Position numbers and translations under genes: made by a program. From positions 186,001 to 250,000 of the forward strand of contig JABMLG010000004.1 in assembly GCA_013204985.1 (NCBI GenBank): a stretch of 64,000 nucleotides of DNA. The letters are read 5' to 3'. The notes below the pieces were generated by a model. That model was given only the letters and a program-made list of their open reading frames with translations, was not told the origin of the DNA and searched no databases. Positions 16,676 to 61,176 of this stretch are shown one piece after another. This stretch comes from Microbacteriaceae bacterium VKM Ac-2855 (lineage in GTDB: Bacteria > Actinomycetota > Actinomycetes > Actinomycetales > Microbacteriaceae). How positions within the stretch are numbered: the stretch's first letter is position 1; every line of letters starts with the position of its first letter.

Positions 16676-16679
16676 CGGG

Positions 16680-36856: not shown

Positions 36857-37480
36857 TCAGACCCGCCAGAGCACGGTGGAGACGATCGCGTCGTAGAGCG
36901 CCAGCAGCGCCTCCTCCAACTCGGCGAGCGCCGATGAGAATGACAGTACGACGACGCGTTCGCTGCTCGGCACCGTCAGCCAGTAGTCGACGATCACGGT
37001 CTCGCCCGCAGCGGATGCGAGGCCCTCCGCCTCGGCATCCGGCCGGGTGCGGCGAGCGCGGCGCACGACTCCAGAGCCTGCGGCCACGGCATCGGAGAAC
37101 TCAGTAGGATCCGCATTCGTCGCCTCGACCAGCGCCTCACGAAGGAGCGAGGCCGCGGCTTCGGGGCGTGCGGCGTCCTGACCAGGTACGCGGAGATCCG
37201 GCCACGCGACGACCAGCGCGCTCGGGATAGAGAGCCCCGGAATCAACTCGCCGGCGAGGTAGAGGTCGCGGCCGCCTGCCTCACGCGCCCGAGCCGCCAT
37301 CGTGGCGAAAGCCTCGCGCAGTTCGGCGCGCAGCTTCGCTCGGTCGTCGCGCGAGCCGACGGTGTCGGCGACCAGCCGGCGGACCGCTGCACGCTCGCGC
37401 TGCGGGTCATCCAGTGGGATCGCACGCCAGCTTCCCGGCAGAACGAACTCGAGGTCTGGTTGCACGTCGACGCTGGTCAT
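36857..37480 (-). CDS. T7SS-operon protein, PsbP/LpqN-like
   Basis: A 207-residue soluble protein, last gene of the secretion operon. It starts 'LEFVLPGSWRAIPLDDPQRE', has a helical first half ('DRAKLRAELREAFATMAARA') and a second half that resembles a Mog1/PsbP-like fold, ending 'VIVDYWLTVPSSERVVVLSF' and 'LEEALLALYDAIVSTVLWRV'. That layout is common for small proteins beside actinobacterial T7SS substrates. No signal peptide. The start overlaps the stop of the upstream gene (ATGA). A chaperone or immunity-like role for the neighbouring substrate is inferred, not shown. Confidence 0.75.
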   Translation of the reverse strand: MTSVDVQPDLEFVLPGSWRAIPLDDPQRERAAVRRLVADTVGSRDDRAKLRAELREAFATMAARAREAGGRDLYLAGELIPGLSIPSALVVAWPDLRVPGQDAARPEAAASLLREALVEATNADPTEFSDAVAAGSGVVRRARRTRPDAEAEGLASAAGETVIVDYWLTVPSSERVVVLSFSSALAELEEALLALYDAIVSTVLWRV

Positions 37481-37908
37481 GCGGACACTCCTTGTTCGAT
37501 GCGGACGGTTCGGGCGAGGGTTTCCGCTGCGCTGGACACGCTTTGTAGCAGGCCGAGGTCGACGCAGACCAGCTGCACTCCGATCATTCGCCCCTGGCGT
37601 TCGAACAGAACTCGGCAGCGCTCCGCGATCTGCTCGGGCTCGCCGGCATCGCCGGACGGGCCCACGCGCACCCAGTCCGCAACGGCGCGTGCTCCCGGAC
37701 CCAGCCCGCTCGGCTCGGATTCGATGGGTCGACTACCGACGACGGAGCCATCGAGCAAGCCCTCCCCCGCGGCGACGGTCGCGATGGCAAGAACGGTACC
37801 GTCCGCGTCGCGCCGCAAGAGAGTGAGGCGCCCGAGCGCATCGGCCTCGAACCCTTCCCACCCCACTGGGACGCTGCACCGGAGCGCGAGAACCATCCCG
37901 GCGGTCAC
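37477..37908 (-). CDS. T7SS-operon protein of unknown function
   Basis: A 143-residue soluble protein. The GTG at 37908 overlaps the stop of the substrate-like gene (GTGA) and is chosen for that reason. The pattern 'LALRCSVPVGWEGFEADALG' and the closing helix 'LLQSVSSAAETLARTVRIEQ' suggest the same general fold as the next gene, with a strand-rich middle. No catalytic motif. Its position right behind the putative secreted protein suggests a dedicated partner such as a chaperone. Confidence 0.72.
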   Translation of the reverse strand: MTAGMVLALRCSVPVGWEGFEADALGRLTLLRRDADGTVLAIATVAAGEGLLDGSVVGSRPIESEPSGLGPGARAVADWVRVGPSGDAGEPEQIAERCRVLFERQGRMIGVQLVCVDLGLLQSVSSAAETLARTVRIEQGVSA

Positions 37909-39179
37909 CGGCCGGCTCCGCTGGGCAACACAACGCGCTCGACCGAGATGACGATCGGCTGCGCAGTGAAGGACGCCCACTGCGGAGTCCCACTCGGTGA
38001 CGCGAGTGGCGCTCCTACGATCTCCGGTTGGGCGAAATCCATCCCGGAGATGTCTGTCACGGCGGAAGCTTCATGCGTCTTCAATGCACCGAATACAGCA
38101 TCACTGATCTCCCAGACGATGCCCGGATTCTCGATACCCCAGGCGTTCACATCGACCGAATCGCCGAATTTCGAGATCTTATAGGCAGCCATACCGCCTT
38201 TGGATATCTCCGTCCAGAGTGCGCCTTTCGAAAAGACGAAACCTCCGCCCTGCACGAAGAGACCTCCGAGGTCGCCTACCGGGCGCATGAGGGTGGAGAC
38301 GGTGCCGGCCGGAACCAGCTTGAGCGTTAACAAGGAGACGATTGCGCCGATAGCCGCGAAGATAAAGTCCTTGACCGGACGATCGCCGAGGGCGACCTGA
38401 AGCGCGACGATACCGAGTTGGATCAGTTGCGTGATCATCGCCGCCGCACCAACAAGCAGAGCGATCGGTTGTAGGCCAGGAATGAACGCGAGGATAACCG
38501 CGAGCACCCCCAGAATGATCGAGACGATCGTCAGAACCTGGTCGAGGAATGCGAGGAACGGTGACAGGTACTCTTTCGCCCACGCCCGGAATCGCTCTGC
38601 GATACCGGCCAGGTCGTCCCACATCGAATCGTTCAACTCATCGGAGCCGACGATCCCGCTGATTCGCGCCGTGGCCTCGTTGGCCGCGCGATCGCGGTCT
38701 ACAACAGCTCCTTGGTATTCGGCCTCCGCCGCGCTCGCGGCTGTCTTCTGCGCCTGCAGCTCAGTCTCGGAGCTGTTCAGCAGCATTTCGTAGTGTCGCC
38801 GATCCTCGCCCTGCACGAGAGGGTCCGCGAGAATGAGACGGTAGCTATTCACATCGCCTCTGGCTGAGCCGATGTCGGTGCGGGCATGATCCGCTATCGC
38901 ACGCAGCGCTCGATCCTGGGCTGCGTGCAGCTTGGGCGCGTAGTCGAGAAGGGCTTCGGCGGTCTCGACGTACCTGACGTGAGCTCGCATGATGCTGGCA
39001 CCGAGATCACGGGCGTCGGCACGGATCGCGTCGACAGCTTCGCTGGTGTACTCGCCGCTGTCGGCGACTCTCTTCAGTTCTTGTCCAGCCGAGCGAATGG
39101 CGTCTGCCGCGTTCAAAAGCGAACTCGCCCGCCCTGCGAGCGAGGCCGGCTCGCCCGGCAATGGCGTGAACGACGTCAT
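37905..39179 (-). CDS. putative T7SS-secreted protein with hydrophobic helices
   Basis: A 424-residue protein. The N-terminal 200 residues are helical and WXG/LXG-like ('AGRASSLLNAADAIRSAGQE', then long amphipathic helices). Three hydrophobic segments follow (about 215-310: 'LDQVLTIVSIILGVLAVILA', 'GLQPIALLVGAAAMITQLIQ', 'FIFAAIGAIVSLLTLKL'). The last 110 residues hold a Gly/Ala-rich and a beta-rich tail with no known toxin motif. It overlaps the upstream WXG100-size gene and the downstream partner by four bases each. This matches the layout of T7SS substrates and pore-forming or membrane-active effectors in other actinobacteria; activity is not known. Confidence 0.75.
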   Translation of the reverse strand: MTSFTPLPGEPASLAGRASSLLNAADAIRSAGQELKRVADSGEYTSEAVDAIRADARDLGASIMRAHVRYVETAEALLDYAPKLHAAQDRALRAIADHARTDIGSARGDVNSYRLILADPLVQGEDRRHYEMLLNSSETELQAQKTAASAAEAEYQGAVVDRDRAANEATARISGIVGSDELNDSMWDDLAGIAERFRAWAKEYLSPFLAFLDQVLTIVSIILGVLAVILAFIPGLQPIALLVGAAAMITQLIQLGIVALQVALGDRPVKDFIFAAIGAIVSLLTLKLVPAGTVSTLMRPVGDLGGLFVQGGGFVFSKGALWTEISKGGMAAYKISKFGDSVDVNAWGIENPGIVWEISDAVFGALKTHEASAVTDISGMDFAQPEIVGAPLASPSGTPQWASFTAQPIVISVERVVLPSGAGR

Positions 39180-39466
39180 GCGTTCTCACCCTCCAGGGCA
39201 TCGGCCAGGGCACGGTCGAGGGCGGTGAACTCCTCCACCACGGTATCGACGGTGCCGATCATCGCTGCCAGAGCTGTGACGATGTCGTCGCGTCGGTCGT
39301 TCCACTTCGAGGCGAACGCGCGCACCGCTGCAGCGAGGTGGTCGTGGCCGACCATATCCGCCACTTCACCCGCCAGAAGATCAGCGGCGGAGAAGTTCAC
39401 CCGAACGAGGTTCAGGTCATCGCCGAGCGTGCTCAGCGCGCTGAGCGGGATGTTCAGGTCGGGCAC
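39176..39466 (-). CDS. WXG100-size helical hairpin protein
   Basis: A 96-residue protein predicted to be two helices. Its turn region has 'FASKWNDRRDDIVTALAAMI', with a Trp where WXG proteins carry theirs, though the Gly is missing. It precedes the substrate-like gene with a 4-base overlap and follows the other WXG100 gene by 77 bases. It probably pairs with the N-terminal helical domain of the substrate, as a T7SS recognition or chaperone unit (inference). Confidence 0.8.
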   Translation of the reverse strand: MPDLNIPLSALSTLGDDLNLVRVNFSAADLLAGEVADMVGHDHLAAAVRAFASKWNDRRDDIVTALAAMIGTVDTVVEEFTALDRALADALEGENA

Positions 39467-39543
39467 GGGCGGTCCTTCGGGTCGGTGAAGAGGATGAGAT
39501 GTGGGTGGGAGGGACTGCCCGTTTCGCAGCCCCTCCCGGAGCG

Positions 39544-39840
39544 TCAGCCCTTGATCGCGCTGGCGAGTTGGCTGTCGGTCTCGCTGTAGGCGCTGGCCGC
39601 GGCATCGAGGTACTTCGCGAGGCCTTCCAGCCCTTCGACGCCCTGACGGAGGCCGGCGCTGAACTGATCGAAGGAGTCGTTATAGGCCCCGGACGCCTGG
39701 TCGGTGACGAAGCCGTCGCTGACCAGGTTGTCCACCAGAGCGCTCAGTTCCGAGAGGGTGGTGGTGAGCTGCTCCTGGCCCTGGCGCAGTCGCGCGGCGG
39801 CGTCGGTCATCGCGGAATAGGTGACGTTTACGTTCGGCAT
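39544..39840 (-). CDS. WXG100 family protein (W-less EsxA-like)
   Basis: A 98-residue helix-turn-helix protein of ESAT-6 size. The turn reads 'SDGFVTDQASGAYNDSFDQF' in place of W-x-G, a variant seen in some actinobacterial WXG100 proteins. The helices are 'YSAMTDAAARLRQGQEQLTT' and 'EGLEGLAKYLDAAASAYSET'. It sits 130 bases downstream of the EccC-type ATPase and has a possible GAAAGGACC ribosome site. It probably is the core secreted dimer of this system. Confidence 0.9.
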   Translation of the reverse strand: MPNVNVTYSAMTDAAARLRQGQEQLTTTLSELSALVDNLVSDGFVTDQASGAYNDSFDQFSAGLRQGVEGLEGLAKYLDAAASAYSETDSQLASAIKG

Positions 39841-39970: not shown

Positions 39971-42900
39971 TCATCCAACTCCGTCCGCGAGAGGGATCTG
40001 AACCCGGGTCGCCACGCCGCCGACGGCGACGTAACCGCGACCAGGAGGGAACTCGGAGCGGTTGGCGCGCGGGAATGCGGTCTTGAGGATCAGGTCGCCC
40101 TCGTGCGACTCCGGCTGCAGGAGGAAGCCGCGTCGGCTCGATTTGACCTCGGTGTTCATCGCGATGGACGAGCCCCAGGTCGCCGTCTCGGATTCGACGA
40201 GCGCGAAGCTGTCGCTCCCCTTGACCGTCTTGAACAGTTCCATCAGTGCGGCGTCCGCCGGTGTGTAGCCGTAGTCGGAGAGCGACTCCACGACGACGGC
40301 GAAGGGCGGCTCATCGGTGCCGAGCCGTGCACTGAGCTCGCGGGCGAGTGTGGCGACCTCCGTCACGCCGATCGCGGTTCCCTCCCAGCGCCCGCTCGCC
40401 GGCAGGAGCGAGCGACGATGGCCGAGATAGAAGAGATCCAGCGACGGGTTCCAGCGACGCAGAGCCGTGACGAGGGTGTGCAGAGCGTTGGAGCGGCCAC
40501 TACCCACGCCACCGCCGAGCAGGAACAATCCCGAGGGCGTGAACCCGACCGGCCGGAGCGTCTCCTCCGAGAGCCCGAGCACCGGAACGCCATCGACGGA
40601 CGCCGGGAGAGTCGACTGCAGGAACTCCTTCGGCAACGATCGGATCTCCGGCGCGACCGCGGCGGCGCCCCTTCGACTCAGTCGGACGCCCCAGGCCTTC
40701 GTGGCCGCCGTCTGTTCGGCGACGGAGCTCGTACCTCCGATGATGGCGATCTGCGTCTCCAAGCCATCCACGATCGCGCGGCCGGGCGGTGAACCGGATC
40801 CGAGCACATCGGTCGGTACATCGAGCAGGGTGTACATGGTGTCGTCGGACAGCCTCAACACGACGCGTCGCTGCACACTGGACAGAACCGAGCTGGGCAC
40901 GCTGCCGGGACGGTCGGCGGTGAGGGCCACGTGCATGCCGAGCTTCTGCCCCTCGGTGAGCAGCTGCTGGAAGATGCCGTACCACTGCGCTCGCCCCCCA
41001 ACGCCCTCGTACTCCGTGCGGAAGGTGGGATAGCCGTCGACGAGGAGGAGAACACGTGGCTCGCTCTGCGTGCCGGTCTGGCTCCGGTACTCGGTGACCG
41101 AGCCGGCTCCGGCCGCCGCATACGTCGCACTGCGGATCTCGAGCATCTCCTTCAGCATCCGGAACAGCCTCGCCACCCGCTCGCTGTCGTCACCGCGGAT
41201 TACCGAGCCGACGTTCGGAAGCGCCTCCAGCATCTGCAGACCACCGGAGGCGAAATCGAGGCCGTAAACCCACACCGGGCCTCCGTCCGGAGTGCGCGCC
41301 GCGGCGGCGGCGAGGGTCCGCAACACCACGGACTTGCCGGTGCCGCCGGTGCCGAACACGGCCAGGTGGCCGTCGAGATCCGGGCGGAAGAACACGGTCT
41401 CCATGCGTTGATGCTTCGGCGCGTCGGCGAGGCCGAGCACGAGTTCATGGTCGCTGCGCGGGTGGAAGCCGGAAAGCGCGTAGCTGCCTTCCAACTCGTC
41501 CTGCCACGGCCGCCGTGGCGCTGGAATGCCCGCCGACTCGGCCGCCGCAGCGGCGGTGGCGACGAGCCGCTTCTGGTCGTCCGGGCCCTTGGCATCCCGG
41601 CTCGCCCTGGCCGGTGCATCGGTCTTCTTCCAATCCGGCCACGCCACTTCGGTGCCGAAGCGGAGTTCGGCCACCTCGATGCTCGCGGGGACCGGTGCTT
41701 CATCCGTCCAACCGCTCGCGTAGGCGGACTGGAAAGAGGTCAACCTGCCAGGCCCGATCTTCGCCACCGCGCGCCCGGGAACGGACGGATCGAAGCCGCC
41801 GGCCACGGGGTCATCGACCACGTCGATGCTGTTCGCACCGTCGGACATCCGCAGCGCGATGCGGAGGTTGGTGTTGGCGCGGAGATTGTCCTTGATCACA
41901 CCGGCGGGCCGCTGAGTCGCCATGATCAGATGGATTCCGAGCGAGCGACCACGTTGCGCTACGTCCACGACGCCGTCGACGAACTCGGGAACATCGGTGG
42001 CCAGCGCAGCGAACTCGTCGATCACGATCACCAGCGACGGCGGGCAGTCCGGGTCACCCGATTCCTCCAGCGAAGCGAGATCCTTCATGTCCTTGTCGCG
42101 GAGCAGCTGCTCGCGGTAGGTCAGCTCGGCTCGGAGGCTGGTGAGCGCCCGCCGGACCAAGTGCGGTCGCAGGTCGGTGACGAGCCCGACGGCGTGCGGC
42201 AGCGCGACGCAGGCGGCGAATGCGGAGCCACCCTTGTAGTCGACGAAGAGGAACGTGACGCGGTCCGGGCTGTACTCAGCCGCCATGCCGAGCACCCACG
42301 CACGCAGGAACTCGCTCTTACCGGACCCGGTGGTGCCGCCAACCAGTGCGTGCGGGCCGTGAGCGCGCAGATCGAGGTGCATCGACGCCGACCCGGCCTG
42401 TCCGACGAGGGCGCGCAGCTTTCCAGGCTTTCGCTCGACGAGCGCACCGCCGGACCGGTCGTGAATCGAATCGTTCTCTCGCCACCGGCCCAGCACGGCG
42501 TTCGCGCTGCGGGCCATCTCGGCACCGATCAAGTCGAGTAGCGCGATGCTGCCGGGGAGGTCACTGGTGTCGGCGACGTACGCGCCCGCATCCACCACGG
42601 GCGCCAGGGCCAGCGCCAACCGCAACGCCTCCTCGCGAGAGACGCGTTCGACGACGACCCCGTCGGCTTGCTCGCCGGTGCGGATGAACGAAACGGTGGC
42701 GGCCGACGTGCCACGGGTGCAGTCGACGAAGGTGCGGCAGGCGGCCGGAAGTCCTGACGGGTCCGCGGCCAGCCACAGCGGGAAGATCCCCGCCTGCACG
42801 GCCCGTTCGGCGATCTGGACGAGGCGCGCGAGGTCGACGGGGGCGTCGGCGCCGACCAGCAGCAGGATGGCGGGCGAAGCGATCTCGGCGGCCGGCGAGA

Positions 42901-44488
42901 GCTCCGAGCCCATGCCGATGCGCGATGCCCTGACCGATGCCGATTCCTCGGGCGCCAGCGGACCGAGCGGCCGCGGTGGAGCTGCGGCCTCACGACCCAG
43001 CCGGAGGGCGACGAGTTCCTCGAGCGCGCTGACCAGGGCGCCGGCACTGGTCGGGCTGTCGGCGAGGTGCGCGCCCGCCAGAGGACTCTGCGGCGAACTG
43101 CTGTGCGGCAGCCACTTGAGCCATTCGAAATCTGCCGCGCTGCCTGGTCCGACCACGGCCGCGACGACCAGCTCGGACGGCGAATGCGCCAGCAGCAGTT
43201 GAGCCAGGTAGGCGCGAGCCACGTCGGCTGCGACGGGCGCGTCCGCCGCCACCCCGATCCCGCCGGCGAGCGCGAGATTCTCGAGCAGCGGAACGCCCTC
43301 GATGAGGCGGAAACGCTCCTCGAGGCCCTCCAGCTTCTTCGAAAACTCGGGAAGTCCGTCCGACCTCTCCCCGCCGGCCGCGACGCGATTGCGGGAAAGG
43401 TCCGTTCCGGTTCCCAGACGGATGCCGAGGAACGGCCAGTGCTCGGGTCGCCGACTCCACAAGCGTGCCCGCGCCCCGTGGGCGTCTCGGATCAGTTCAG
43501 CGACGGCGGGCGCCTCTCCGAGCCGGGCCTCGCGCTCCCGCGGCACCGCCTCCGCGAGGAGCTGTTCCAGCGCCGCGAGCTGGGTCTCGAAGCGACGAAC
43601 CACCTCACCCTGCCTGCGGCGACGATTCATCCGGGTGGTCAGATAGTTTCCGGCGAGCATGATCGGCGAGAGCACCGCGAAGACGAGGGAGAGCGGGTTG
43701 CGCGTCACGGCGAAGAGCGCGCCGGCCATGATCAGCGGCGCAAGCATCGTGATCCACGGGAACATCGGCTTGTCGTACTCGGAGGGCACCTCTGGTCGCG
43801 GATGCACGGTACCGGGGTAGCGAGGCTCCAGCACCGGATGCCGGACGAACCCGACGGAACCGCCGACCACGGCCGCAGACGGCTCCGTCCGCGCCTCGTA
43901 GGGCGCCGTCAGAGTGACGGTGACCGCCGTGTCGCCGATCAGCACCACCTGGTCGGGTGCGAGCACGATCTTGGCTACGAGGCCGCCGTCGACGATCAGG
44001 CCGTTGGCCGAGTTGAGGTCGGTGAGTTCGATGCGGGCGCCGATATCGACTCGCATGTGCCGCTTCGAGACCAGTGAGTCGCTGAGGACGACGTCGCAGC
44101 CGGGATCGCGGCCGACCTCGCTCAGACCCGCGCGGAGATGGTACTCCCGCCCGGAATCCGGGCCAGAGAGCACACGCAACACGGCGGCGATCTGCACGGC
44201 GCCGCCCGATCCCTGACCCCCGGCCGGCACCACCGCAACGGAGTAGCCGGAGCCGAGCGGCGACTCCACCAGGAGCCGCTCCGCGTCGAGAGTCGTCCCG
44301 CCTGCCGTGTACGGCTCGGCCACGATCAGGGTGAGGTCCTCCTCCACCTGGCGCGGCCGGCCGGCCGCGGCGTCACCCGTACGGCGGATGGTCGCCGCGA
44401 CATCCGACACCGTGGCCCGTGCGTCGGTGGTGACGACGACGTCCTTCGTGGCACCGTCGCGGCCCACGACACTCAGCTTCAAGCGCAT
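39971..44488 (-). CDS. eccC: type VII secretion ATPase EccC/EssC with ubiquitin-like and FHA domains
   Basis: A 1,505-residue membrane ATPase. Residues about 1-95 resemble a ubiquitin-like YukD/EsaB fold, and about 105-195 are an FHA domain ('EVGRDPGCDVVLSDSLVSKR' with 'TDLNSANG'). Two membrane helices lie near 245-290. Three FtsK/SpoIIIE ATPase modules follow. The first has 'VGGTTGSGKSEFL' and 'VIVIDEFAALATDVPEF'. The second has 'GTGGTGKSVVL' and a less clear acidic motif. The third has a weak P-loop 'GGVGSGRSNAL', with Arg for Lys. The single-chain layout with an N-terminal FHA is closer to Firmicute EssC than to split mycobacterial EccCa/EccCb. It drives export of the WXG100 proteins encoded just downstream. 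Confidence 0.92.
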   Translation of the reverse strand: MRLKLSVVGRDGATKDVVVTTDARATVSDVAATIRRTGDAAAGRPRQVEEDLTLIVAEPYTAGGTTLDAERLLVESPLGSGYSVAVVPAGGQGSGGAVQIAAVLRVLSGPDSGREYHLRAGLSEVGRDPGCDVVLSDSLVSKRHMRVDIGARIELTDLNSANGLIVDGGLVAKIVLAPDQVVLIGDTAVTVTLTAPYEARTEPSAAVVGGSVGFVRHPVLEPRYPGTVHPRPEVPSEYDKPMFPWITMLAPLIMAGALFAVTRNPLSLVFAVLSPIMLAGNYLTTRMNRRRRQGEVVRRFETQLAALEQLLAEAVPREREARLGEAPAVAELIRDAHGARARLWSRRPEHWPFLGIRLGTGTDLSRNRVAAGGERSDGLPEFSKKLEGLEERFRLIEGVPLLENLALAGGIGVAADAPVAADVARAYLAQLLLAHSPSELVVAAVVGPGSAADFEWLKWLPHSSSPQSPLAGAHLADSPTSAGALVSALEELVALRLGREAAAPPRPLGPLAPEESASVRASRIGMGSELSPAAEIASPAILLLVGADAPVDLARLVQIAERAVQAGIFPLWLAADPSGLPAACRTFVDCTRGTSAATVSFIRTGEQADGVVVERVSREEALRLALALAPVVDAGAYVADTSDLPGSIALLDLIGAEMARSANAVLGRWRENDSIHDRSGGALVERKPGKLRALVGQAGSASMHLDLRAHGPHALVGGTTGSGKSEFLRAWVLGMAAEYSPDRVTFLFVDYKGGSAFAACVALPHAVGLVTDLRPHLVRRALTSLRAELTYREQLLRDKDMKDLASLEESGDPDCPPSLVIVIDEFAALATDVPEFVDGVVDVAQRGRSLGIHLIMATQRPAGVIKDNLRANTNLRIALRMSDGANSIDVVDDPVAGGFDPSVPGRAVAKIGPGRLTSFQSAYASGWTDEAPVPASIEVAELRFGTEVAWPDWKKTDAPARASRDAKGPDDQKRLVATAAAAAESAGIPAPRRPWQDELEGSYALSGFHPRSDHELVLGLADAPKHQRMETVFFRPDLDGHLAVFGTGGTGKSVVLRTLAAAAARTPDGGPVWVYGLDFASGGLQMLEALPNVGSVIRGDDSERVARLFRMLKEMLEIRSATYAAAGAGSVTEYRSQTGTQSEPRVLLLVDGYPTFRTEYEGVGGRAQWYGIFQQLLTEGQKLGMHVALTADRPGSVPSSVLSSVQRRVVLRLSDDTMYTLLDVPTDVLGSGSPPGRAIVDGLETQIAIIGGTSSVAEQTAATKAWGVRLSRRGAAAVAPEIRSLPKEFLQSTLPASVDGVPVLGLSEETLRPVGFTPSGLFLLGGGVGSGRSNALHTLVTALRRWNPSLDLFYLGHRRSLLPASGRWEGTAIGVTEVATLARELSARLGTDEPPFAVVVESLSDYGYTPADAALMELFKTVKGSDSFALVESETATWGSSIAMNTEVKSSRRGFLLQPESHEGDLILKTAFPRANRSEFPPGRGYVAVGGVATRVQIPLADGVG

Positions 44489-44490
44489 CG

Positions 44491-45234
44491 TCAGTCGTCC
44501 TCATCGGTCGGGGGCTGGTCGAGCAGGGCGAGATCGCCACGGGTGACCAACTGGGTAGAGACGGCGTACTCCACGAGGCGCGCTCGGCGGTTGGTCGCGA
44601 GGGCACCCGGCCCGCCGCGCACCCCACGGACGCCGACGCGGTCGAGCTTCTCGCAGACGTTGTCGAGCTTTCGGTTGAAACGAGTGGTGAGCCAACCGAG
44701 GCGCGCGGCAGCGGATGCGGAGGAGGGGATGTCGCTGGTGCCGGTTCCATCGCGACGCAGCAACGGCTCGGCCAGCGCCACGATGAGCAGACGCTGCGAT
44801 GGGGTCAGCGCGATGCCACCCACGGTCGTGCTGCCCGTCATCGGGCGCGTCGAGGCCGTGGTCTGAAAAGCAGGCGACGCGGAGTGGATGCTCAGCTCGT
44901 ACGTCGTCGGACCGGCGGTGAAGATCACGACGGTGTAGCCGAAGACGATGGGCAGCCTGCTGCCCGGACCGAGCCAGGCCTGCACGCCGCCCGAGCCATC
45001 GGTGATCGTCGCCGTCAGGCGACTGCCGACATTGACCAGCCACCAGAGCCCGTCGCCGAACCCGACCTCGAGGAACCGGCGGTGCAGGAACGGATTGTCG
45101 TCGAGGTCGAGGTCGCCCTCACGGCCGATCACGAACGGTTCGCTGCGCGTGGGGGTGAACCACTCGCCGCAATACTCGACGCTGATCTCGTTCTCCGACG
45201 GCGACGGCAGCACGGGGAGGATCGATGTGGTCAC
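44491..45234 (-). CDS. FHA-domain protein with C-terminal helical domain
   Basis: A 247-residue cytoplasmic protein. The N-terminal part (about 15-105) is FHA-like: 'EPFVIGREGDLDLDDNPFLH' and 'RRFLEV.FGDGLWWLVNVGS', which keeps the Gly-Arg and the later Asn. The C-terminal half (about 130-240) looks winged-helix-like ('LTPSQRLLIVALAEPLLRRD', 'LGWLTTRFNRKLDNVCEKLD'), so it may bind DNA in response to phosphorylation. The GTG at 45234 overlaps the kinase stop (GTGA). It is two bases before EccC. Likely partner of the adjacent kinase. Confidence 0.82.
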   Translation of the reverse strand: MTTSILPVLPSPSENEISVEYCGEWFTPTRSEPFVIGREGDLDLDDNPFLHRRFLEVGFGDGLWWLVNVGSRLTATITDGSGGVQAWLGPGSRLPIVFGYTVVIFTAGPTTYELSIHSASPAFQTTASTRPMTGSTTVGGIALTPSQRLLIVALAEPLLRRDGTGTSDIPSSASAAARLGWLTTRFNRKLDNVCEKLDRVGVRGVRGGPGALATNRRARLVEYAVSTQLVTRGDLALLDQPPTDEDD

Positions 45235-52796: not shown

Positions 52797-54076
52797 CCGT
52801 CGCCCCGCTGCAGGATCCGCGGCAGCTCTTCCAAGGTGGGAACCGTGAGCACCACGATCTCGCCGAGCATCCGTCGGGATGGTTCGGCGCCGGGCGCACA
52901 CCGCAACACCAGCACGCGAGCGCCGCGCGGCAGGTGCTGAGCGGCCGCGCGCAGCTGAGCCGGCTTCGTCTGCGGACCGACCGAGAGCACCACCACGGAC
53001 GCCTCGGTGGCCCTCCGCCCCACCGCGCGGGCGAGCGCGATCACGTCACCGTCGGGAACGAGCTCGACGCCGGCGAGAGCGTCCAGCAGTTCGCGTCGTC
53101 CGCTTGAGCGGAGCACCACGTTCTGCGCGACGAGGCTGACGGCCCTGCCGTCGGCGAGCGCCTGGAGCCCGACCGAACCCGCGGCCGACACCGCCAGTTC
53201 GAAGCCGATCGCTACGGGAGCGTCCGAATCCGGATGCTCCGAGCCCGCGACCGAGATTCCGATCGCGATCTGGGTCCGTCGGGTCTCCTCGAACTGTCTC
53301 ACCATGAGGGTCCGTGTGCGGGCGTAGGTCTTCCAGTGCACGTGGCGCCGGTCGTCGCCGAGCGAGTACTCCCGAAGAGCGTGAAAGGAGACGTCGCTGT
53401 TCGAGAGTTCACGGCTCGGGTCTCCCTCGAGATCTTTCAGGAGGCCGGCCGCCGAATTAGCCAAGGCGACCGTGCGCGGATGGACGAACAGCTGTTGCGG
53501 CTCCGTCCAACGCACGACCCGGCGCAGCATTCCGAACGGGTCGCCTCGAACCGACCTCAGCGGGCCGACCGGCAGCACGCCGCGACGGTGCGTCGGGATG
53601 ATGAAGCTCGCTTCGTGCGCAGCCCCGGCTGCCAGACGAGGCAGCGCGAAGACCTCAGTAGTCCCTCCGATCGGCAGCTCGATCGTGGCCGGCAGCAGAG
53701 CATGGCCGGACGCATTCGCCACGCGGACGCGGCCCACGGCACGATGGCCGACGACGACCCGGTCTACCGCCAGATCCAGCGCGACCCTGTAGGCGGACCG
53801 ACCGATCGTGAACGCGGTGGCGACAGCCAGGGCGGCCAGGCCGAAGACGGCCAGGAGGCGCACCTCCACCCACCCGAGCGCTGCGCCGAGCAGCAGCAGG
53901 ACGACGCTGACGAACAACACACTCCACCCGAGCCGGGTCACCACGCGAGCCGCGGGGGTGACTCGCACGAGCGCCGGGCGAACCGCCGCGCCGACTACGG
54001 CCGCGACCGCGCCAGTGCGCTCGCGCAGCGCCGCAGTGCGCCGAGCCAGGGGCATCGATCCGCCCGTCGTGGTCAC
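52793..54076 (-). CDS. DUF58 family protein
   Basis: A 427-residue protein. Two membrane helices near the N-terminus (about 35-80, 'LGWSVLFVSVVLLLLGAALG') are followed by a beta-domain and the DUF58 signature, including 'SFHALREYSLGDDRRHVHWK' and 'TYARTRTLMVRQFEE', then a von-Willebrand-A-like region. DUF58 proteins pair with MoxR ATPases and are thought to bind metals and assist complex assembly. GTG 54076 overlaps the MoxR stop (GTGA); its stop overlaps the transglutaminase start. Confidence 0.88.
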   Translation of the reverse strand: MTTTGGSMPLARRTAALRERTGAVAAVVGAAVRPALVRVTPAARVVTRLGWSVLFVSVVLLLLGAALGWVEVRLLAVFGLAALAVATAFTIGRSAYRVALDLAVDRVVVGHRAVGRVRVANASGHALLPATIELPIGGTTEVFALPRLAAGAAHEASFIIPTHRRGVLPVGPLRSVRGDPFGMLRRVVRWTEPQQLFVHPRTVALANSAAGLLKDLEGDPSRELSNSDVSFHALREYSLGDDRRHVHWKTYARTRTLMVRQFEETRRTQIAIGISVAGSEHPDSDAPVAIGFELAVSAAGSVGLQALADGRAVSLVAQNVVLRSSGRRELLDALAGVELVPDGDVIALARAVGRRATEASVVVLSVGPQTKPAQLRAAAQHLPRGARVLVLRCAPGAEPSRRMLGEIVVLTVPTLEELPRILQRGDG

Positions 54077-55062
54077 GCGGCGGCTCGATCCTGCGGTGCT
54101 GGGACGGCCGCGAGCACCGCGCCGAGCACGGAGGCTGCGGTGGCGCCCGAGAACTCGGCCTCCGGATCGAGGACGAAACGGTGCAGCCACACGGGTGCGA
54201 CCAGTCGCTTCACGTCGTCCGGCAGCACGAAGGTGCGTCCGTGCGCTGCCGCCCACACCTTCGCCGCACGCACCAGGGCGAGCGCACCGCGCACGGATAT
54301 GCCGACTCGCACTTCCGGCGCCGATCGGGTTGCCTCGGCGAGCAACGCGACGTACCGCAGAACGGCCGGATCGACGTGGGTCCGCGCAGCCATCTCGGCC
54401 ATCTCGATGACCCCCGCACCCGATACCACCGGAGCGAGCGAACTCGACGGGTTGCGATCGCCGGATCCAGCGAGAATGCGTTCCGCAGCGGCCAGGTCCG
54501 GATAGCCGATCGATGTCTTGATCAGGAAGCGGTCGAGCTGCGCCTCGGGGAGGCGGTATGTACCGGCCGTCTCGATCGGGTTCTGCGTGGCGATCACCAT
54601 GAACGGGCGGGGCGCGTCGTGGGTGGTGCCGTCCACCGTCACCTTCGACTCCTCCATCACCTGCAAAAGAGCCGACTGCGTCTTGGGCGAGGCACGGTTG
54701 ATCTCGTCCGCGAGCACGATCGAGGCGAAGATCGGCCCCGGATGGAATTCGAAACGGTTCGTGCGCGGATCGGGGATCTCGGCTCCGGTGACGTCGCTGG
54801 GCAACAGGTCCGGCGTGAACTGGATGCGGTTGCTGCTCGACTGCACGGTCGCGGCGAGCGCCTTCGCGAGGCTCGTCTTACCCGTACCCGGTGCGTCTTC
54901 GAGCAGCACGTGGCCCTCGGCGATGAGCGCGACGAGCACGAGCGCCACCACCTCATCCTTACCGAGGACGGCCTGGCCGATGTTCTGCACCATCTTGCCG
55001 AAGGTGTCGGCGACCCAAGCGGCTTCGTCCGGGCCGAGCGGAGTGGACGGGTTCAGGGGCAT
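54073..55062 (-). CDS. MoxR-type AAA ATPase
   Basis: A 329-residue AAA+ chaperone-like ATPase. Motifs: Walker A 'LEDAPGTGKTSLAKALA', 'RIQFTPDLLPSDVTGAEI', Walker B 'IVLADEINRASPKTQSALLQ', sensor 1 'FMVIATQNPIETAGTYRLPE', 'AQLDRFLIK', and the C-terminal lid with 'GISVRGALALVRAAKVWAA'. MoxR proteins remodel partner complexes together with DUF58/VWA proteins. It follows the giant Ig/FN3 gene by 51 bases and overlaps the DUF58 gene by four. Confidence 0.93.
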   Translation of the reverse strand: MPLNPSTPLGPDEAAWVADTFGKMVQNIGQAVLGKDEVVALVLVALIAEGHVLLEDAPGTGKTSLAKALAATVQSSSNRIQFTPDLLPSDVTGAEIPDPRTNRFEFHPGPIFASIVLADEINRASPKTQSALLQVMEESKVTVDGTTHDAPRPFMVIATQNPIETAGTYRLPEAQLDRFLIKTSIGYPDLAAAERILAGSGDRNPSSSLAPVVSGAGVIEMAEMAARTHVDPAVLRYVALLAEATRSAPEVRVGISVRGALALVRAAKVWAAAHGRTFVLPDDVKRLVAPVWLHRFVLDPEAEFSGATAASVLGAVLAAVPAPQDRAAA

Positions 55063-55113: not shown

Positions 55114-58100
55114 TCACCATGCGGTGGATGACGTCGTCATGACGCCGATGATCTCGACCGAGATGTTCGCCTTGAAGCCGTAGTAGCAGCCGAGCTGCGT
55201 CGAACCATTCGCGTAGAAACGGGTACGTCCTGTCGTCGGCGGCTCTGCGAATACGGCACCGTTGGCGAGGCACTTGTACTGGTAATCGCCCTCGGGGAAA
55301 TTCTTGGTGTCGACGATCACGAAGGGACAATTGCCGGATTGGCAGGGTCCGTTCTCCGAACTCTTGCGAACGGACGCCTCTTTCGGCGGCGGATCCACCG
55401 TGCGTGCCTCGGCGTAGGACTCAGCACTGACCTGTCCGGCCGTGTCGAACGCCTTCACTCGGATCGAGTGGGTCTCGCTGTAGCCGTTGCCGGCCGAAGT
55501 CGAGCCGTTCGTCGGGTCGACGCGCTGCCAGGAGCCGTTGTCGACCATGATCTCCAAGCGGTCGAGAGGGCGCCCGTTGGCTGCGGGGGGCGCCCAACTC
55601 AAGGTCACGGACGTGCCGTTCTGCGCCGCGCGCGCCACCGGGGTCTGCACCGGACCGAAGGGGGCTAGTGGTGACGACGGCGAGCTCCACGCGCTCTCGT
55701 ACTCGTTGCCTTCGACCGTGGCGACTGCTTTCACCCGCACGGTGTAGGTGTTGTTGTTCGAGATGCCTTGTGTCAGCGTCGCGCTCGCGGGCCGGCGCGA
55801 TTCGTCTCCGTTCAGGTCGTAGACGTAACGGGTCTCCGATGCGCTCAGCCCGTTCGCGGTGCCGGGCGTCCAGGCGAAACGCACGATGGAGTTGTCGCCC
55901 TCGGCGGCGGATGTGATGACCGGGGTACCCGGCGTGCCGACCGCTCGGCGGGGCGCGGAGTCCGCGCTCCAAACGGGCGCGCTCTTGCCCGCATCCGTCG
56001 CCTTGTTCTTCGCTGTCACGGCGAAGGTGTATCCGTTCTCGGAGTTGTCCACGGTCACGGCGGCGGTGAGCGTCTTCGAGTCGGTATCAGCCGTACTCAC
56101 AACAGTGCCGCTGCGCTTCACCTGCACGGTGTAGCCGCTGAGTGCCTCGGCGTTCGGCACAGCAGGGGCCGTCCAGGTGACCGTGAGCTGCGACTGGGCA
56201 CCCACCGGCTTTGCCGGGGACACGATCGGAGTGCCGGGAGCGCTCGGTGCACCAGCCGGACTCATCGACATCGGCCCGCTCCAGTCGGATGGGTCGGGCG
56301 CCTTGTTCGACGCCCGCACCTTCAGCGTGTAATTCGAGCCGTTACTGAGACCACTGAACTGCCGAGTACGCGTTCCAGCAGCGACCGGGAACTCGCCTCC
56401 GCCCTCGCCGACGAGCTGCACGGTGTAGCCGGTCACGGCGGAGCCGGGATTCGGACCGTCCGCCCACGTGACCGTGAGCGAGCCGTCGCCGAAGTCGAGA
56501 GCAGTGATCGTCGGGGCGCCGGGACGCGCGTCCGGGCGAGCGATGGCCGAGGCGGGCGAGGGGTCGGACTCGCCGACCTCGTTACTCGCGGTGACGGTGA
56601 AGACGTACTCCACGTCGTTGGTCAGCCCGCCGATGGTGCAGGTGGTCGCCGGGCAGCCCTGGCTGCCGCCGGACCATCGCACCGTGTGCCCGGTGATCTC
56701 GGCGCCGTTGTTCGGGCCATCGGGCCAACTGAGCACAACCGTGCGGTCCTGCACGGAGCTCACAGAGGGCGTCCCGGGCGCGGCCGGCTTGCCCTGCACG
56801 GTGACCAGCACCGAGCCGTACACGTACCGATCAGGGTCCTCGGTCGCATCCGCCACTCGATAACGCACCGTCATCGTGCCGACGAAACTCGCCGCAGGCG
56901 TGATCACGAGGCTTCGACCCGACGCCTGAACGTCGCCCGCCCCCGGTGTCGTGACCTCGGGCTGGCCGACGAACTCGAGCGGGGACTCGGGGTACGGGTT
57001 CACGTCGTTCGAGAGCACGTCCACCGTGACAGCGCGGCCCTGCGGCGCCTTGGCCACGACATCGTCATTGGCAACCGTCAGAGGGCGCGTGGATGCAGTG
57101 ACGGCGACGACGACGGAGGCGGTGACCGCCGGGTTCGTCCCGTCGGTCAGGGTGATCGTCAGCGTCTCAGTGGTGCCCTTGGAGACGTCCTCCTCCGCGG
57201 AGACGGAGAGGACGGAGCCGTTGACCGCGGCGGTGAAGCCATCGGGCGCCGCGGAGACCTGATAACTGAGTTTCTCCAGGTCGCCGGGATCCGGATCGGC
57301 GGAGAGGGCACGAAGGTCGAGGGTCGCCGCGGCCTCACCCGGAGCCACCTGCATCGCCCCGTCGGTCATCGTCGGAGGCTGGTTGCTGGCCGGGAGGACG
57401 GTGATCGGCAGCACGATGGTCGCCTTGGCGCCCGCCGGGTCGTCCGGCCCTTCTCCGTCCGTCACCTCGAAACTCAGCGCATCCGGGCCGAAGTAGCCTG
57501 CCGCGGGCGTGTAGACCAGCGTGCCCTCGTCCTGCACGAATGCGGCATCGGCGGCGTGCGTCGCCGAAACCTTGTCGGCCTGCGTGATCCGCAGCGGTTT
57601 GCCCGACGGCGAGTCGACGTAGTCCGCGATCAGGATCGTCACCGTCTCGCCAGAGGTGACCTCGACCGCGTCCACGTCGTCCTTCAACGACGGTACGAGG
57701 TCGGCCAGGCCGGGTACGCGGATGAAGGCCGAGCCGGTCAATCCGTCTGGATCCGTGACGGTGTAGCGGATGATCTGCGCGGTCTCGGCGAGCTCCACGG
57801 TCACGGCGGAGTCCGAGACGCTCGCAGCCGCGGCTTCCACCGTGATCGTCAGTTCGGCCGCAACGCCGTCCCGATCCTCGTCGTTCTTCAGCACCGCCAC
57901 ATCTACCGTCGTCGTATCGTCCGTAGCGGCCACGGTGACGACATCGTCCCGAGCGATGGGCGGTTGCAGCGGGGCGTCGGCCGAGACCGTGACGAGGAGG
58001 CTGCCGACGGCGGTCGCGCCTCGGGCGTCCGTCACGGTGTATTGCAGGGTGTAGTCGCCCTCCGTCTCCGGCGCGGTGACCAGCACGCGACCGCCGGCGA

Positions 58101-61100
58101 TCTCAGCGGTGATGCCCTCGTCGAGGACGAGGCCGTCCGTGGCCAGGCTGAGCGTGTCGCCGTCCGGATCGGTGTCGTTGCCGAGCACGTCGACCGCGAT
58201 CCGGCGCCCTGGTAGCGCGATCACCGTGTCCTTCACGGCGTTCGGGGTCTGGTTCTGCAGAGAGGCGGGTGCCACTCCGACGCGGATCGTGGCCGTGTTC
58301 TCGGCGCCCAAGCTGTCGCGCACACGGTAGGTGAAGGTGTCGGTACCAGCGGAGTCGGCGTAGGCCTCGTACGAGAGGAAGCCGTCTCCGACCTCGTCGA
58401 TGCGACCGAGCTTCGGCGCTTCGGCCTGTCCGACGAGGGTGACGCTGTCGCCGTCCTGATCGATGCCGGTGAGCGGCACCGGGATCCGAATGGTCGTACC
58501 TGCGAGCGCGCGCGCATCCAGGTCCTGGGGCCGCGGCGGCGTGTTCCCTGCATCGGCAGGAAGGATCTGGATGGAGACGTAGCCGGCGTCCTTCTGACCC
58601 AGCGGATCGATCGCCTCGTAGGTGAGGTAGACCGTCTTCGGCTCCGGGCCGGCGAGGAAGCGCACCCGATCCTCGGAGATGAAGGCCTGACCGTCTGCCT
58701 CCGCTGGTACCGGCTCCACGAGATCGGCGGCGACGTGCAACGTCGCCCCGCTGGGAGACGAGTCGTTGGCGAGCACATCGAGTGTCACGACGTCGCCCGC
58801 TCGGACGACAGCTGTGTCGTCGACGGCGACGGGAGGCCCGGCCGACGGCGGTGCTGGTACCGGGATCACCAGCACCTCGCCCGGTGCCGTGGCGGTGCCG
58901 TTCGAGACGGTGTACGAGAAGGTCACCGGCTCGGTGATGCCCGGCTGGTCCGTGATTCGCAACACCGCATGATCAAGAACGGCGACGGCGACTCCGAGTG
59001 TCGGCGAGACGGTGACCTCCTGCACGACGAGCACGCCGCCTGCCGGATCCGAATCGTTCTGAAGTACATCAACCAGCACGTCTCCACCGACAGGCAGCAG
59101 CGCTACGTCGCGCACTGCGACCGGCTCCGCGGCGGTGGCGTCGCCGGGCAGAACGTCGATGCGCACCAGACCCACCGCGACGCGCGGCCCGTCGTTGACT
59201 CGGTATTGCGCGTAGTAGCTTCCCTCGGCGGCAGCCGTGAACGTGAAGGTCCCCGCGGTGTAGTCCGGTACGACTGTCGCGCCCGACACGTCGTCCACGT
59301 CGGTCAACGTCAGAGGGACCCCGCTCGGACTCAGATCGTTGGTGAGCGGAGCGACGATGACCGGCTGATCCACCACCGTGATCACGTGATCGGCATTGGC
59401 GATCGGATCGTTCACTCCGGGCGCTCGGACGTCCACACGCAGCACTCCGTCCACCGGCTCGGTGCCGTCGGAGACCGAGAGCAGAACGTCCTTGCGACCC
59501 TGCTGGGCGCCGACCGCGTCGAAGGTGACCAGCCCGTCCGGGCGCGAACGCACCTGATCATCAGTGGTGGGGGCGGCCGACTCGAGGTAGAGGTCGTCGC
59601 CGTCCGGATCCGTGAAATCGGGGAGCACGTTGTACGAGAGGGAGGCACCCTGCTCGACCACGATCGTCGCCTCCCGCTTCTGCACCGGAGGACTATTGCG
59701 CTCCGGCGGCACGACGCTCAGCGTGACAGTGGCTTCCGCGACACCTTGGCGACCGTCGGCCACGGCGTAGCGGAAGATCGCGGACCCGACAGCCTCCGGG
59801 TCGACTCTGATCTGTAGGGCGGCTCCGCCGGAGATCGACACGATCTCGCCGATCGCAGGATCGTCCCCCACACGCTCTGCGGTCAGCACGTCGCCATCGG
59901 GATCGGAGTCGTTGTCGAGGACGGGCAGGATGATCGTGCGACCGGCGCGCACCCCGAGCTCGTCGTCAACAGCGACGGGAAGCCGGTTGTCCGCCGTGCG
60001 CTCCGGGATCGTCGTCTCGACCCGCTGCTCGCTGCTCTCCTGGTCCTCGTCATCGGTCGTCTCGTCGTCCGAGGGCGTGATGTCATCCCAGTTCTGCAGC
60101 TCCTTCATGTCCTGGTCGACCAGCCAGACTTTCCCCGTCCCGAGCTCATTGAGGACCACGGCCGCTCTGTTCACGCGAAAGACGGCGCGCGCGTCGCCCA
60201 GCAGACTGGCCACATCTCGGGCATCATCGTCGACAGTTCCAGCGCAGTCGCGCAGATATTTTCCGGATCCAGTCCAGGCCGCATAGCTGCATCCACCGAC
60301 CACGACCGGCGCAACAGCGGTTCCCGCGCCCTCCGACGAGATCCGGGTGGGAGCCGAGCCGTCCAGGGGCTGCAGCACCAGCGCGGTGTCGTCGGAGTAG
60401 GAGAGCGAGCCGGCGGCCGGACCAGGGCTCTGCAGACGAATGGCCCCGGGATCACCCGCGACATCCGCGGGAAGGGGCTGTGCCTCTCTGGCGTCGATCG
60501 ACAGCGCCCCGGACGCCGAATCGTAGACGACAGGCACGGCGCCGACCGCCGTGACGTTGAGCTCCGCCGACGCGCCGAACCCGCCCAGCGCCTTACTGCT
60601 CACGGTCCCGTCCGGAGCGATCGTGACCAGGGAGGCCTGTTCGCGCGAGGCGGCGAACACTGTGCCGTCCCCCGCGACCGTCATTGCCGCCCCCGCGCCG
60701 AGCGTCGCGACCGGCTCGGTCGATGCCACATCGAACGACTCGACCGACTCGGCCGTGGTGGCCCATAGCCGGCCGCTCTCGCGGTCGAGAAGGGCGAGGA
60801 CGTCTCCGCCCAGGGTGACCGTGCTCAAGCCCGGCACAGCAACCTCCGCGCCGAGAGCGACGTTCGCCGTGTCGACCACCGATACCGTCGCGTTGATCTC
60901 GTCGTGCACGACCACGGTGTCGGCAACCTGATCGATGTCGAACTCGGCGGCTTTCGTGCGCAACCCGGCGTCGAAGACTTGCGACGGGTAGTTCACCCGA
61001 CCGGCCAGCAGACCTGCGGGCTTGGTCACCCACACTCCGCCGTCGTTCAGGTCGACGTCGGCGGTCGTCACTCCCTGGTACAGCACTGCCATCGTCGAGA

Positions 61101-61176
61101 CCACGATCGACACAGCTGCGAGCGTCGCTACGGAGGCGATCGTCCGTGGTCGTCGCGAGACTCGCGTGAATGCCAT
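55114..61176 (-). CDS. giant membrane-anchored Ig-like/FN3 protein
   Basis: A 2,020-residue protein and first gene of the secretion operon. One membrane helix lies near the N-terminus ('IASVATLAAVSIVVSTMAVL', about 15-35) with a short cytoplasmic tail. A propeller-like region (about 45-370) is followed by an acidic linker. About ten cadherin/Ig-like repeats come next, with 'VLDNDSDPDGD'-type calcium-binding motifs, then five FN3 domains (for example 'APTITALDFGDGSLTVTW', 'QTPVARAAQNGTSVTLSW') and a Cys-containing cap (about 1930-2020). ATG 61176 is chosen because the membrane signal begins here; the frame extends 30 codons further but without protein character. Probable surface fibre or cell-envelope spacer working with the T7SS. 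Confidence 0.88.
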   Translation of the reverse strand: MAFTRVSRRPRTIASVATLAAVSIVVSTMAVLYQGVTTADVDLNDGGVWVTKPAGLLAGRVNYPSQVFDAGLRTKAAEFDIDQVADTVVVHDEINATVSVVDTANVALGAEVAVPGLSTVTLGGDVLALLDRESGRLWATTAESVESFDVASTEPVATLGAGAAMTVAGDGTVFAASREQASLVTIAPDGTVSSKALGGFGASAELNVTAVGAVPVVYDSASGALSIDAREAQPLPADVAGDPGAIRLQSPGPAAGSLSYSDDTALVLQPLDGSAPTRISSEGAGTAVAPVVVGGCSYAAWTGSGKYLRDCAGTVDDDARDVASLLGDARAVFRVNRAAVVLNELGTGKVWLVDQDMKELQNWDDITPSDDETTDDEDQESSEQRVETTIPERTADNRLPVAVDDELGVRAGRTIILPVLDNDSDPDGDVLTAERVGDDPAIGEIVSISGGAALQIRVDPEAVGSAIFRYAVADGRQGVAEATVTLSVVPPERNSPPVQKREATIVVEQGASLSYNVLPDFTDPDGDDLYLESAAPTTDDQVRSRPDGLVTFDAVGAQQGRKDVLLSVSDGTEPVDGVLRVDVRAPGVNDPIANADHVITVVDQPVIVAPLTNDLSPSGVPLTLTDVDDVSGATVVPDYTAGTFTFTAAAEGSYYAQYRVNDGPRVAVGLVRIDVLPGDATAAEPVAVRDVALLPVGGDVLVDVLQNDSDPAGGVLVVQEVTVSPTLGVAVAVLDHAVLRITDQPGITEPVTFSYTVSNGTATAPGEVLVIPVPAPPSAGPPVAVDDTAVVRAGDVVTLDVLANDSSPSGATLHVAADLVEPVPAEADGQAFISEDRVRFLAGPEPKTVYLTYEAIDPLGQKDAGYVSIQILPADAGNTPPRPQDLDARALAGTTIRIPVPLTGIDQDGDSVTLVGQAEAPKLGRIDEVGDGFLSYEAYADSAGTDTFTYRVRDSLGAENTATIRVGVAPASLQNQTPNAVKDTVIALPGRRIAVDVLGNDTDPDGDTLSLATDGLVLDEGITAEIAGGRVLVTAPETEGDYTLQYTVTDARGATAVGSLLVTVSADAPLQPPIARDDVVTVAATDDTTTVDVAVLKNDEDRDGVAAELTITVEAAAASVSDSAVTVELAETAQIIRYTVTDPDGLTGSAFIRVPGLADLVPSLKDDVDAVEVTSGETVTILIADYVDSPSGKPLRITQADKVSATHAADAAFVQDEGTLVYTPAAGYFGPDALSFEVTDGEGPDDPAGAKATIVLPITVLPASNQPPTMTDGAMQVAPGEAAATLDLRALSADPDPGDLEKLSYQVSAAPDGFTAAVNGSVLSVSAEEDVSKGTTETLTITLTDGTNPAVTASVVVAVTASTRPLTVANDDVVAKAPQGRAVTVDVLSNDVNPYPESPLEFVGQPEVTTPGAGDVQASGRSLVITPAASFVGTMTVRYRVADATEDPDRYVYGSVLVTVQGKPAAPGTPSVSSVQDRTVVLSWPDGPNNGAEITGHTVRWSGGSQGCPATTCTIGGLTNDVEYVFTVTASNEVGESDPSPASAIARPDARPGAPTITALDFGDGSLTVTWADGPNPGSAVTGYTVQLVGEGGGEFPVAAGTRTRQFSGLSNGSNYTLKVRASNKAPDPSDWSGPMSMSPAGAPSAPGTPIVSPAKPVGAQSQLTVTWTAPAVPNAEALSGYTVQVKRSGTVVSTADTDSKTLTAAVTVDNSENGYTFAVTAKNKATDAGKSAPVWSADSAPRRAVGTPGTPVITSAAEGDNSIVRFAWTPGTANGLSASETRYVYDLNGDESRRPASATLTQGISNNNTYTVRVKAVATVEGNEYESAWSSPSSPLAPFGPVQTPVARAAQNGTSVTLSWAPPAANGRPLDRLEIMVDNGSWQRVDPTNGSTSAGNGYSETHSIRVKAFDTAGQVSAESYAEARTVDPPPKEASVRKSSENGPCQSGNCPFVIVDTKNFPEGDYQYKCLANGAVFAEPPTTGRTRFYANGSTQLGCYYGFKANISVEIIGVMTTSSTAW

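Follow-up and report, generated by a model that had tools for sequence, protein, structure and literature searches.

Gene content and organization of the cluster

The window, the whole stretch of 64,000 nucleotides that was analysed, is C21:186001-250000 of the 26-contig, 4.7-Mb genome of Microbacteriaceae bacterium VKM Ac-2855. It contains a cluster of fifteen closely packed open reading frames (ORFs), all on the minus strand and running from 61266 down to 36857 in the ORF list of the window, which probably encodes a self-sufficient type VII secretion system (T7SS). Two components of a T7SS in the broad sense are present, an EccC/EssC ATPase and a WXG100 gene encoded together with it. The inner starts were placed by hand on the translations, by which several ORFs were shortened; those so placed are 61176 (giant protein), 54076 (DUF58), 52796 (TgpA-like), 48442 (FHA), 45243 (FHA-like) and 37896 (small protein). 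The 80 named loci referred to here and below are the matches listed in a contig profile scan, a lower bound and not a census, and all counts out of 80, 69 or 52 rest on them. In order of transcription the genes are as follows.

55114..61176, minus strand: giant Ig/cadherin-like/FN3 protein, 2,020 aa (ten Big_9, Cadherin_5 and three fn3 matches)
54073..55062, minus strand: MoxR AAA+ ATPase (AAA_3, 204.6 bits)
52793..54076, minus strand: DUF58 protein with two hydrophobic segments (PF01882; hand-placed start, 4-base overlap with MoxR)
50388..52796, minus strand: TgpA-like multi-pass transglutaminase-domain protein (Transglut_core and TgpA_N)
49307..50395, minus strand: RDD membrane domain with C-terminal FHA domain (RDD 61 bits, FHA 30.5 bits)
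48435..49310, minus strand: PP2C/PPM phosphatase (PP2C_2, 34.5 bits)
46844..48442, minus strand: FHA protein whose long linker is rich in proline and alanine (FHA, 27 bits)
45231..46847, minus strand: membrane Ser/Thr kinase (Pkinase, 142 bits; single hydrophobic segment at 405-423)
44491..45243, minus strand: FHA-like protein without the phosphothreonine motif (no Pfam match)
39971..44488, minus strand: EccC/EssC-type ATPase, 1505 aa (Pfam FHA and two FtsK_SpoIIIE stretches; profile compared with solved structures)
39544..39840, minus strand: WXG100 protein (PF06013, 59.9 bits; DGF replaces W-x-G in its own sequence)
39176..39466, minus strand: 96-aa partner protein (no Pfam match; family members in 55 of the 80 listed loci)
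37905..39179, minus strand: T7SS_signal substrate-like protein (PF21725, 35.8 bits; hydrophobic segments between 215 and 290)
37477..37896, minus strand: 139-aa small protein (no match in Pfam, searched as a 167-aa frame, or in NCBIfam)
36857..37480, minus strand: 207-aa protein, candidate substrate chaperone (predicted Mog1/PsbP/Eag-chaperone fold)

The initial annotation, made from the sequence, described fifteen minus-strand genes mostly overlapping by 4-8 bases. All are present with the Pfam domains described, and the RDD-FHA, kinase, PP2C, MoxR, DUF58, transglutaminase and Ig/FN3 assignments are each supported by Pfam matches. Overlap is found at nine of the 14 junctions, over a wider range (4-13 bases), and the other five have gaps of 2-130 bases. 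Two of the pairs that were named hold for one member each. One of the two WXG100-size proteins matches PF06013 and the second (39176-39466) has no Pfam match; similarly one of the two further FHA proteins matches Pfam FHA, while that ending at 44491 does not and has a degenerate motif. The absence of EccB and EccD from the cluster genes is borne out and extends to EssB (EccE and mycosin were not searched for).

The secretion ATPase, its recurrence and its independence

The ATPase comprises a candidate ubiquitin-like domain (residues 1-90), an FHA domain (105-189) and two hydrophobic segments (243-284), and then continues into the ATPase domains. The FHA domain had been proposed to lie within the ATPase itself, and the Pfam FHA match does fall in the same protein as the two FtsK_SpoIIIE stretches; an FHA fold is also predicted by modelling. 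The G-R, S, H and N-G residues are kept in all 36 rows of an N-terminal alignment (the window protein and relatives from 35 of the 80 loci), and judged by this intact motif the domain is phosphothreonine-competent. A PDB profile search with the ATPase gave matches to the solved structures of EccC5, YukB and the stalk of EccC3. It scores 448.5 against NCBIfam EssC, below the cut-off of 778.4, and reaches the cut-off of neither EccCa nor EccCb. The 20 window-type ATPases form one clade (SH-aLRT 100) in a quick tree of 38 rows that has long branches on the T7SSa and T7SSb rows; L169 was left out, having no ATPase by the ORF rule.

The ubiquitin-like component is a separate EsaB/YukD protein in T7SSb systems, and part of EccD in T7SSa. 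In the window system it is probably fused to the N-terminus of the ATPase. The predicted order of elements in residues 1-90 is strand-strand-helix-strand-strand, nothing more, and the fold list for residues 1-215 is filled by FHA domains, so that the N-terminal part is not covered by fold. Using segment ends chosen by eye, an indirect profile route connects the window-type to other ATPases (97.6%) and these others to YukD/EccD (67.8%); all pooled gave 9.9%, and an FHA control 0.3%. The link is suggestive via the more distant ATPases only, the direct match being not significant. This probable domain and the predicted Eag-type fold of the 207-aa protein are new in the present analysis.

Orthologues of the ATPase scoring above 700 bits are found in 55 of the 198 genomes of the order, own genome included, and in 12 families; the next listed match is at 451. 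At 1e-30 there are matches in 187 of the 198, FtsK-level scores included. The contig profile scan gives at least 80 named loci, with Microbacterium, Agromyces, Promicromonospora, Nocardioides, Aeromicrobium, Arthrobacter and Pseudarthrobacter among them; the best ATPase matches point to Microbacteriaceae for the own genome. Synteny was assessed by light alignment, and the recurrence of neighbours is given as counts without a formal null. For 52 of the loci at least 9 kb is available on both sides (the 28 with less than 9 kb on one side were left out). Among these long-flank loci RDD-FHA is present in 38, the kinase in 24, TgpA/DUF58/MoxR in 29 and WXG100/partner/substrate genes in 45, and at least one of the RDD-FHA, kinase and TgpA-type neighbours is found in 50, the exceptions being L060 and L077. 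In 37 of the 69 loci with upstream room (11 of the 80 were left out) the gene directly before the ATPase is RDD-FHA. The kinase is found in 32 of the 80 loci, 26 times on the upstream side and six times downstream (L053, L054, L063, L070, L103 and L109), and its link to the ATPase thus outlives rearrangement. The neighbourhood search with EccC plus the kinase that had been proposed finds the cluster co-conserved; the recurrence of the ATPase in 12 families, and of similar neighbours in the 80 named loci, is judged to exceed chance.

Independence from other type VII machinery was examined in 12 relatives, chosen for one window-type ATPase match each. All 12 have exactly three FtsK_SpoIIIE matches at 1e-8, corresponding to FtsK and the two domains of the window-type ATPase, so the latter is the only EccC-type protein in each. 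EssB/YukC is found in none, nor is EccB or EccD over cut-off (EccE, mycosin, EsaA and EssA were not searched for). WXG100 proteins are present in 10 of the 12 at E 0.01 (eight over cut-off), always within 1 kb of the ATPase. Long WXG-headed ORFs are scattered in these relatives; seven were scanned, giving three alpha/beta-hydrolase matches and one glycine-zipper match, all of which, the WXG100 ones too, are weak and below the Pfam cut-offs. With only one EccC-type motor available, these ORFs are candidate effectors.

EccB is absent from the own genome in a search whose positive control found it in 61 of 197 genomes of the class, and the best EccD score is 16.3 bits (cut-off 30), in a search that did detect EccD in G298, G017 and G111. 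G111 and G017, of which one belongs to the same family and the other to the same order, have EccB and EccD together with EccC in classical-looking ESX systems (L161-L163).

The own genome does have a separate T7SSb-type system, with EssB/YukC (201.8 bits, the only YukC match, outside the cluster), an EssC-type ATPase, two DUF4176 proteins and LXG (28.3 bits) on C20:372-9701. A remainder comprising WXG100 (62.5 bits) and YukD (26.9 bits, cut-off 27) lies at the end of C2, probably split from the C20 part by a contig break. In this system neither EsaA nor EssA was identified by family. It is an instance of a T7SSb-type system in an actinobacterium (L011 = G000:C20:1-16000, and the end of L012 = G000:C2); the published classification assigns T7SSb to Bacillota (PMC11217815).

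The initial annotation had set against itself a complete separate ESX machinery with the cluster not co-conserved. A second T7SS exists, but it is of T7SSb type, and the cluster is co-conserved and stands alone in the 12 chosen relatives. The look elsewhere in the genome for EccB and EccD that it proposed gave no EccB, and no EccD over cut-off, yet turned up the EssB system on C20/C2. On gene content the window-type system is independent of EccB, EccD and EssB in the chosen relatives.

Regulatory, envelope and substrate genes

The kinase motifs VAVK, HRDxKPxN and DFG are present in 28 of 29 relatives, and the short outer part of the protein looks beta-rich by eye. The metal-site motifs of the PP2C phosphatase are kept in 24 of 28 relatives, and the G-R, S, H, N-G type pattern of the separate FHA protein in 27 of 30. 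The FHA-like protein adjoining the ATPase has lost the phosphothreonine motif, in the window and in five clean relatives, where the motif positions read D[D/E]NxxLHR[R/H]F and N[V/I]G. Elsewhere, at L180 (G038, 17548-20000), an EccC from another clade has a window-type kinase (855 bits to the kinase model) and an FHA gene in its vicinity, and the phospho module may thus be exchanged between T7SS types.

The giant protein has a hydrophobic segment at residues 13-31 and none at its C-terminus. An Ig-type ORF lies immediately upstream of MoxR in eight of the 11 relatives with room; the three that have none each offer only ~1.5 kb of upstream sequence. The sequence G-[D/N]-x-E-Q-[Y/F] is common to the TgpA-like proteins of all 36 relatives. 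The position of the catalytic cysteine, which we take to be that of TgpA, is occupied by Asp in the window protein and by Asp, Gln or Glu in all 36 relatives. The His and Asp regions are kept in the window protein, as aligned to the solved chain 6g49; a search by sequence for solved structures of a TgpA-like stretch found none. If the assumed cysteine position is right, these proteins are conserved pseudo-transglutaminases, and their role is then probably structural.

The T7SS_signal protein is the sole PF21725 match of its genome at E 0.1. Its hydrophobicity was measured on an alignment of the window protein with 26 of 47 length-filtered candidates. The number of T7SS_signal genes within 10 kb varies among the long-flank loci, the substrate cassette being repeated in some: 24 loci have one, 12 have two, two have three and 14 none. 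The 139-aa protein has no relative in any of the 80 listed loci by phmmer.

The 207-aa protein is predicted to have a Mog1/PsbP/Eag-type fold. Compared as folds, it has 7% identity and an rmsd of 3.9-4.7 to the Eag chaperones SciW and EagT6. The Eag (DUF1795) chaperones serve effectors of the type VI secretion system (T6SS), whereas the 207-aa gene is linked to a T7SS. The family alignment comprises the window protein and 32 of 42 candidates; no DUF1795 match was found among the 33 members scanned at E 1, and PsbP matched one at E 0.15. Assignment to a Pfam family was dismissed, the scattered single matches being at chance level. The same fold is common to LpqN, PsbP and the T6SS immunity protein Tsi3, and so does not fix the function, although the protein could act as a chaperone of the hydrophobic helices of the substrate. 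In a relative outside the window clade a T7SS_signal domain is fused to an Rhs protein, with a member of the 207-aa family and a WXG100 protein encoded next to it.

Interpretation and relation to known systems

We favour the reading, and hold it to be reasonably probable, that the cluster is a self-sufficient T7SS of undescribed subtype, in which phospho-gating, chaperone and envelope roles are included. The initial annotation had proposed a minimal, phospho-regulated actinobacterial T7SS variant. A variant without EccB, EccD and EssB, in which kinase and FHA genes are recurrent companions, agrees with the present results; the word 'minimal' misleads, since the system comes with a large, conserved module of envelope and phospho genes. 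No description of the combined cluster was found by title or abstract opening in the open-licence literature.

In the PFNA operon of Bifidobacterium the order is fn3, aaa-atp, duf58 and tgm, with prpC after them. Its description calls the operon unique to bifidobacteria and makes no mention of FtsK, type VII or WXG in the main text (PMC8430577). Kinase, FN3 giant, AAA ATPase, DUF58, transglutaminase, PP2C and FHA genes are shared with the window, and the fn3-aaa-duf58-tgm order is identical, in a comparison of gene order and domains, not of protein sequences. By contrast the pkb2 kinase is first in PFNA and the kinase eighth in the window, and neither EccC nor WXG100 is among the PFNA genes listed there (PMC8430577). 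The phospho/Ig/MoxR/DUF58/TgpA genes might then be an independent envelope-sensing operon lying merely beside a secretion ATPase, which would fit the lack of secretion terms in that main text as well as the 16 of 52 long-flank loci where neither kinase nor TgpA/DUF58/MoxR is found within 10 kb. However, RDD-FHA is still present in 14 of those 16 and directly upstream of the ATPase in over half of the loci with room (37 of 69), and the linkage recurs in differing gene orders. We consider an independent operon unlikely.

Types T7SSc to T7SSj were defined by Garrett, Higginson and Palmer in 2024, who noted kinases, phosphatases and intact FHA motifs among them; T7SSd, in Actinomycetota, has WXG100, an FHA-bearing ATPase with an intact phosphothreonine motif, a membrane kinase, TsdH and the Ig-like giant TsdI, with no ubiquitin-like protein reported (PMC11217815). 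Four of these five parts are present in kind in the window (WXG100, FHA-ATPase, membrane kinase and Ig giant), and the cluster could be a published T7SSd with extra genes. The window nevertheless adds a PP2C phosphatase, three further proteins of FHA or FHA-like type, and RDD, MoxR, DUF58 and TgpA. PP2C, RDD-FHA, DUF58, MoxR and TgpA are not among the five parts described, and the main text also has no mention of Microbacterium, Cellulomonas, Micrococcales, RDD, MoxR or transglutaminase (PMC11217815). The window giant lacks a C-terminal hydrophobic segment, whereas TsdI is described with a signal peptide and a C-terminal helix (PMC11217815), and the window ATPase bears the candidate ubiquitin-like domain. 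Moreover, the window-type ATPases form their own clade, and those of L165 and L166, which are T7SSd-like by neighbours only and not verified as TsdC, fall outside it. L165 has WXG100, kinase, a 1798-aa Ig protein and an ATPase on which Pfam found no FHA; L166 was read only from the giant onward. Identity with T7SSd is accordingly judged distinctly improbable. We read the system as allied to but separate from T7SSd, with the PFNA gene order attached, a reading set against the T7SSd-like rows only.

The cluster shares with T7SSb an EssC-type ATPase with N-terminal FHA and small helical partners, but EssB is lacking in the cluster and in the chosen relatives, and the EssC equivalog cut-off is not reached. 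That the cluster is a substrate and regulator set using the T7SSb-type machine on C20/C2 of its own genome is very unlikely, because neither EssB nor a second EccC is found in any of the 12 chosen relatives, and the cluster has its own full-length ATPase. With T7SSa/ESX it shares the EccC-type motor, whose profile matches EccC3 and EccC5, and a WXG100 substrate; it differs in the NCBIfam EccCa/EccCb scores and in the lack of EccB and EccD over cut-off, for which T7SSa identity was rejected.

In the favoured reading of a self-sufficient T7SS, the ATPase would be the motor, and the WXG100 pair and the T7SS_signal protein its substrates, the 207-aa Eag-fold protein holding the hydrophobic helices of the substrate in the cytosol until export. 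The membrane kinase would act as an envelope sensor that phosphorylates a membrane partner, most likely the RDD-FHA protein or its own juxtamembrane region, and PP2C would reverse this. Docking of the ATPase FHA domain on the phosphorylated partner may then assemble or open the machine. The RDD-FHA protein is the best candidate partner, since it is membrane-bound, has an FHA domain of its own and is so often the immediate upstream gene. The RDD-FHA, DUF58, TgpA-like and Ig/FN3 proteins would span membrane and wall in place of EccB/D/E or EsaA/EssB, with the Ig/FN3 giant and the TgpA-like protein carrying the path across the wall.

Several observations weigh against this reading. Eleven of the 12 chosen relatives come from one family (f12), so the test of independence covers little beyond one lineage; sub-cut-off matches occur in them for EccB in one (13.8 bits) and for EccD in four (12.6-13.8 bits), and in two (G062 and G090) WXG100 is not found at E 0.01. 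Known channel proteins are lacking. The kinase lies within 10 kb in only 24 of the 52 long-flank loci, and seven of the 52 have no WXG-type gene by the models used, although one of these, L127, has WXG100-like genes below the Pfam cut-off. In G116 the ATPase match starts at residue 183 of a 1357-aa frame, and the FHA part is thus missing. The direct profile comparison of the ATPase N-terminus with YukD/EccD gives a probability of 1.1%, which is not significant, and Pfam YukD matched just three of the 36 N-terminal rows (best E 0.019). Export, phospho-gating, the chaperone role, the envelope conduit and the ubiquitin-like identity of the N-terminal domain are parts of the model that we infer.

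A more comprehensive version can be put forward tentatively, as a possibility that is rather less probable than not. The system would be a further actinobacterial T7SS lineage with no known membrane subunits, its ATPase carrying its own ubiquitin-like and FHA domains and being switched by kinase/PP2C/RDD-FHA docking; the PFNA set would be the envelope conduit, Eag-type chaperones would hold substrates with transmembrane helices as in T6SS, and the same N-terminal fusion would explain the ubiquitin-like protein missing from T7SSd. The N-terminus of the L165 ATPase also resembles the EccD/YukD pattern, and a fusion as in L165 would account for that missing component. If this is true, a widespread T7SS subtype without EccB, EccD and EssB would be added, reopening the question of the channel; PFNA, so far an orphan operon of Bifidobacterium, would be tied to secretion; T7SSd would have a possible answer to its missing protein; and Eag-type chaperones would serve T7SS besides T6SS.

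Two further loci of the genome were observed. L014 (G000:C12:732000-748000) is a second FHA/PP2C/short EccC-like locus, with a 916-aa ATPase. A ~4-kb insert in this locus encodes a radical SAM protein, whose SPASM match is slightly under the cut-off, and gives a weak match to M50 peptidases. The insert lies between two identical direct repeats of 861 bases (1028-1888 and 5941-6801), duplicating a portion of the FHA gene together with the beginning of the ATPase gene. Within the window, 18324-20057 on the minus strand encodes a Schlafen group 3 helicase protein whose start resembles GIY-YIG at a score below cut-off; it adjoins short genes at 15731-18127.

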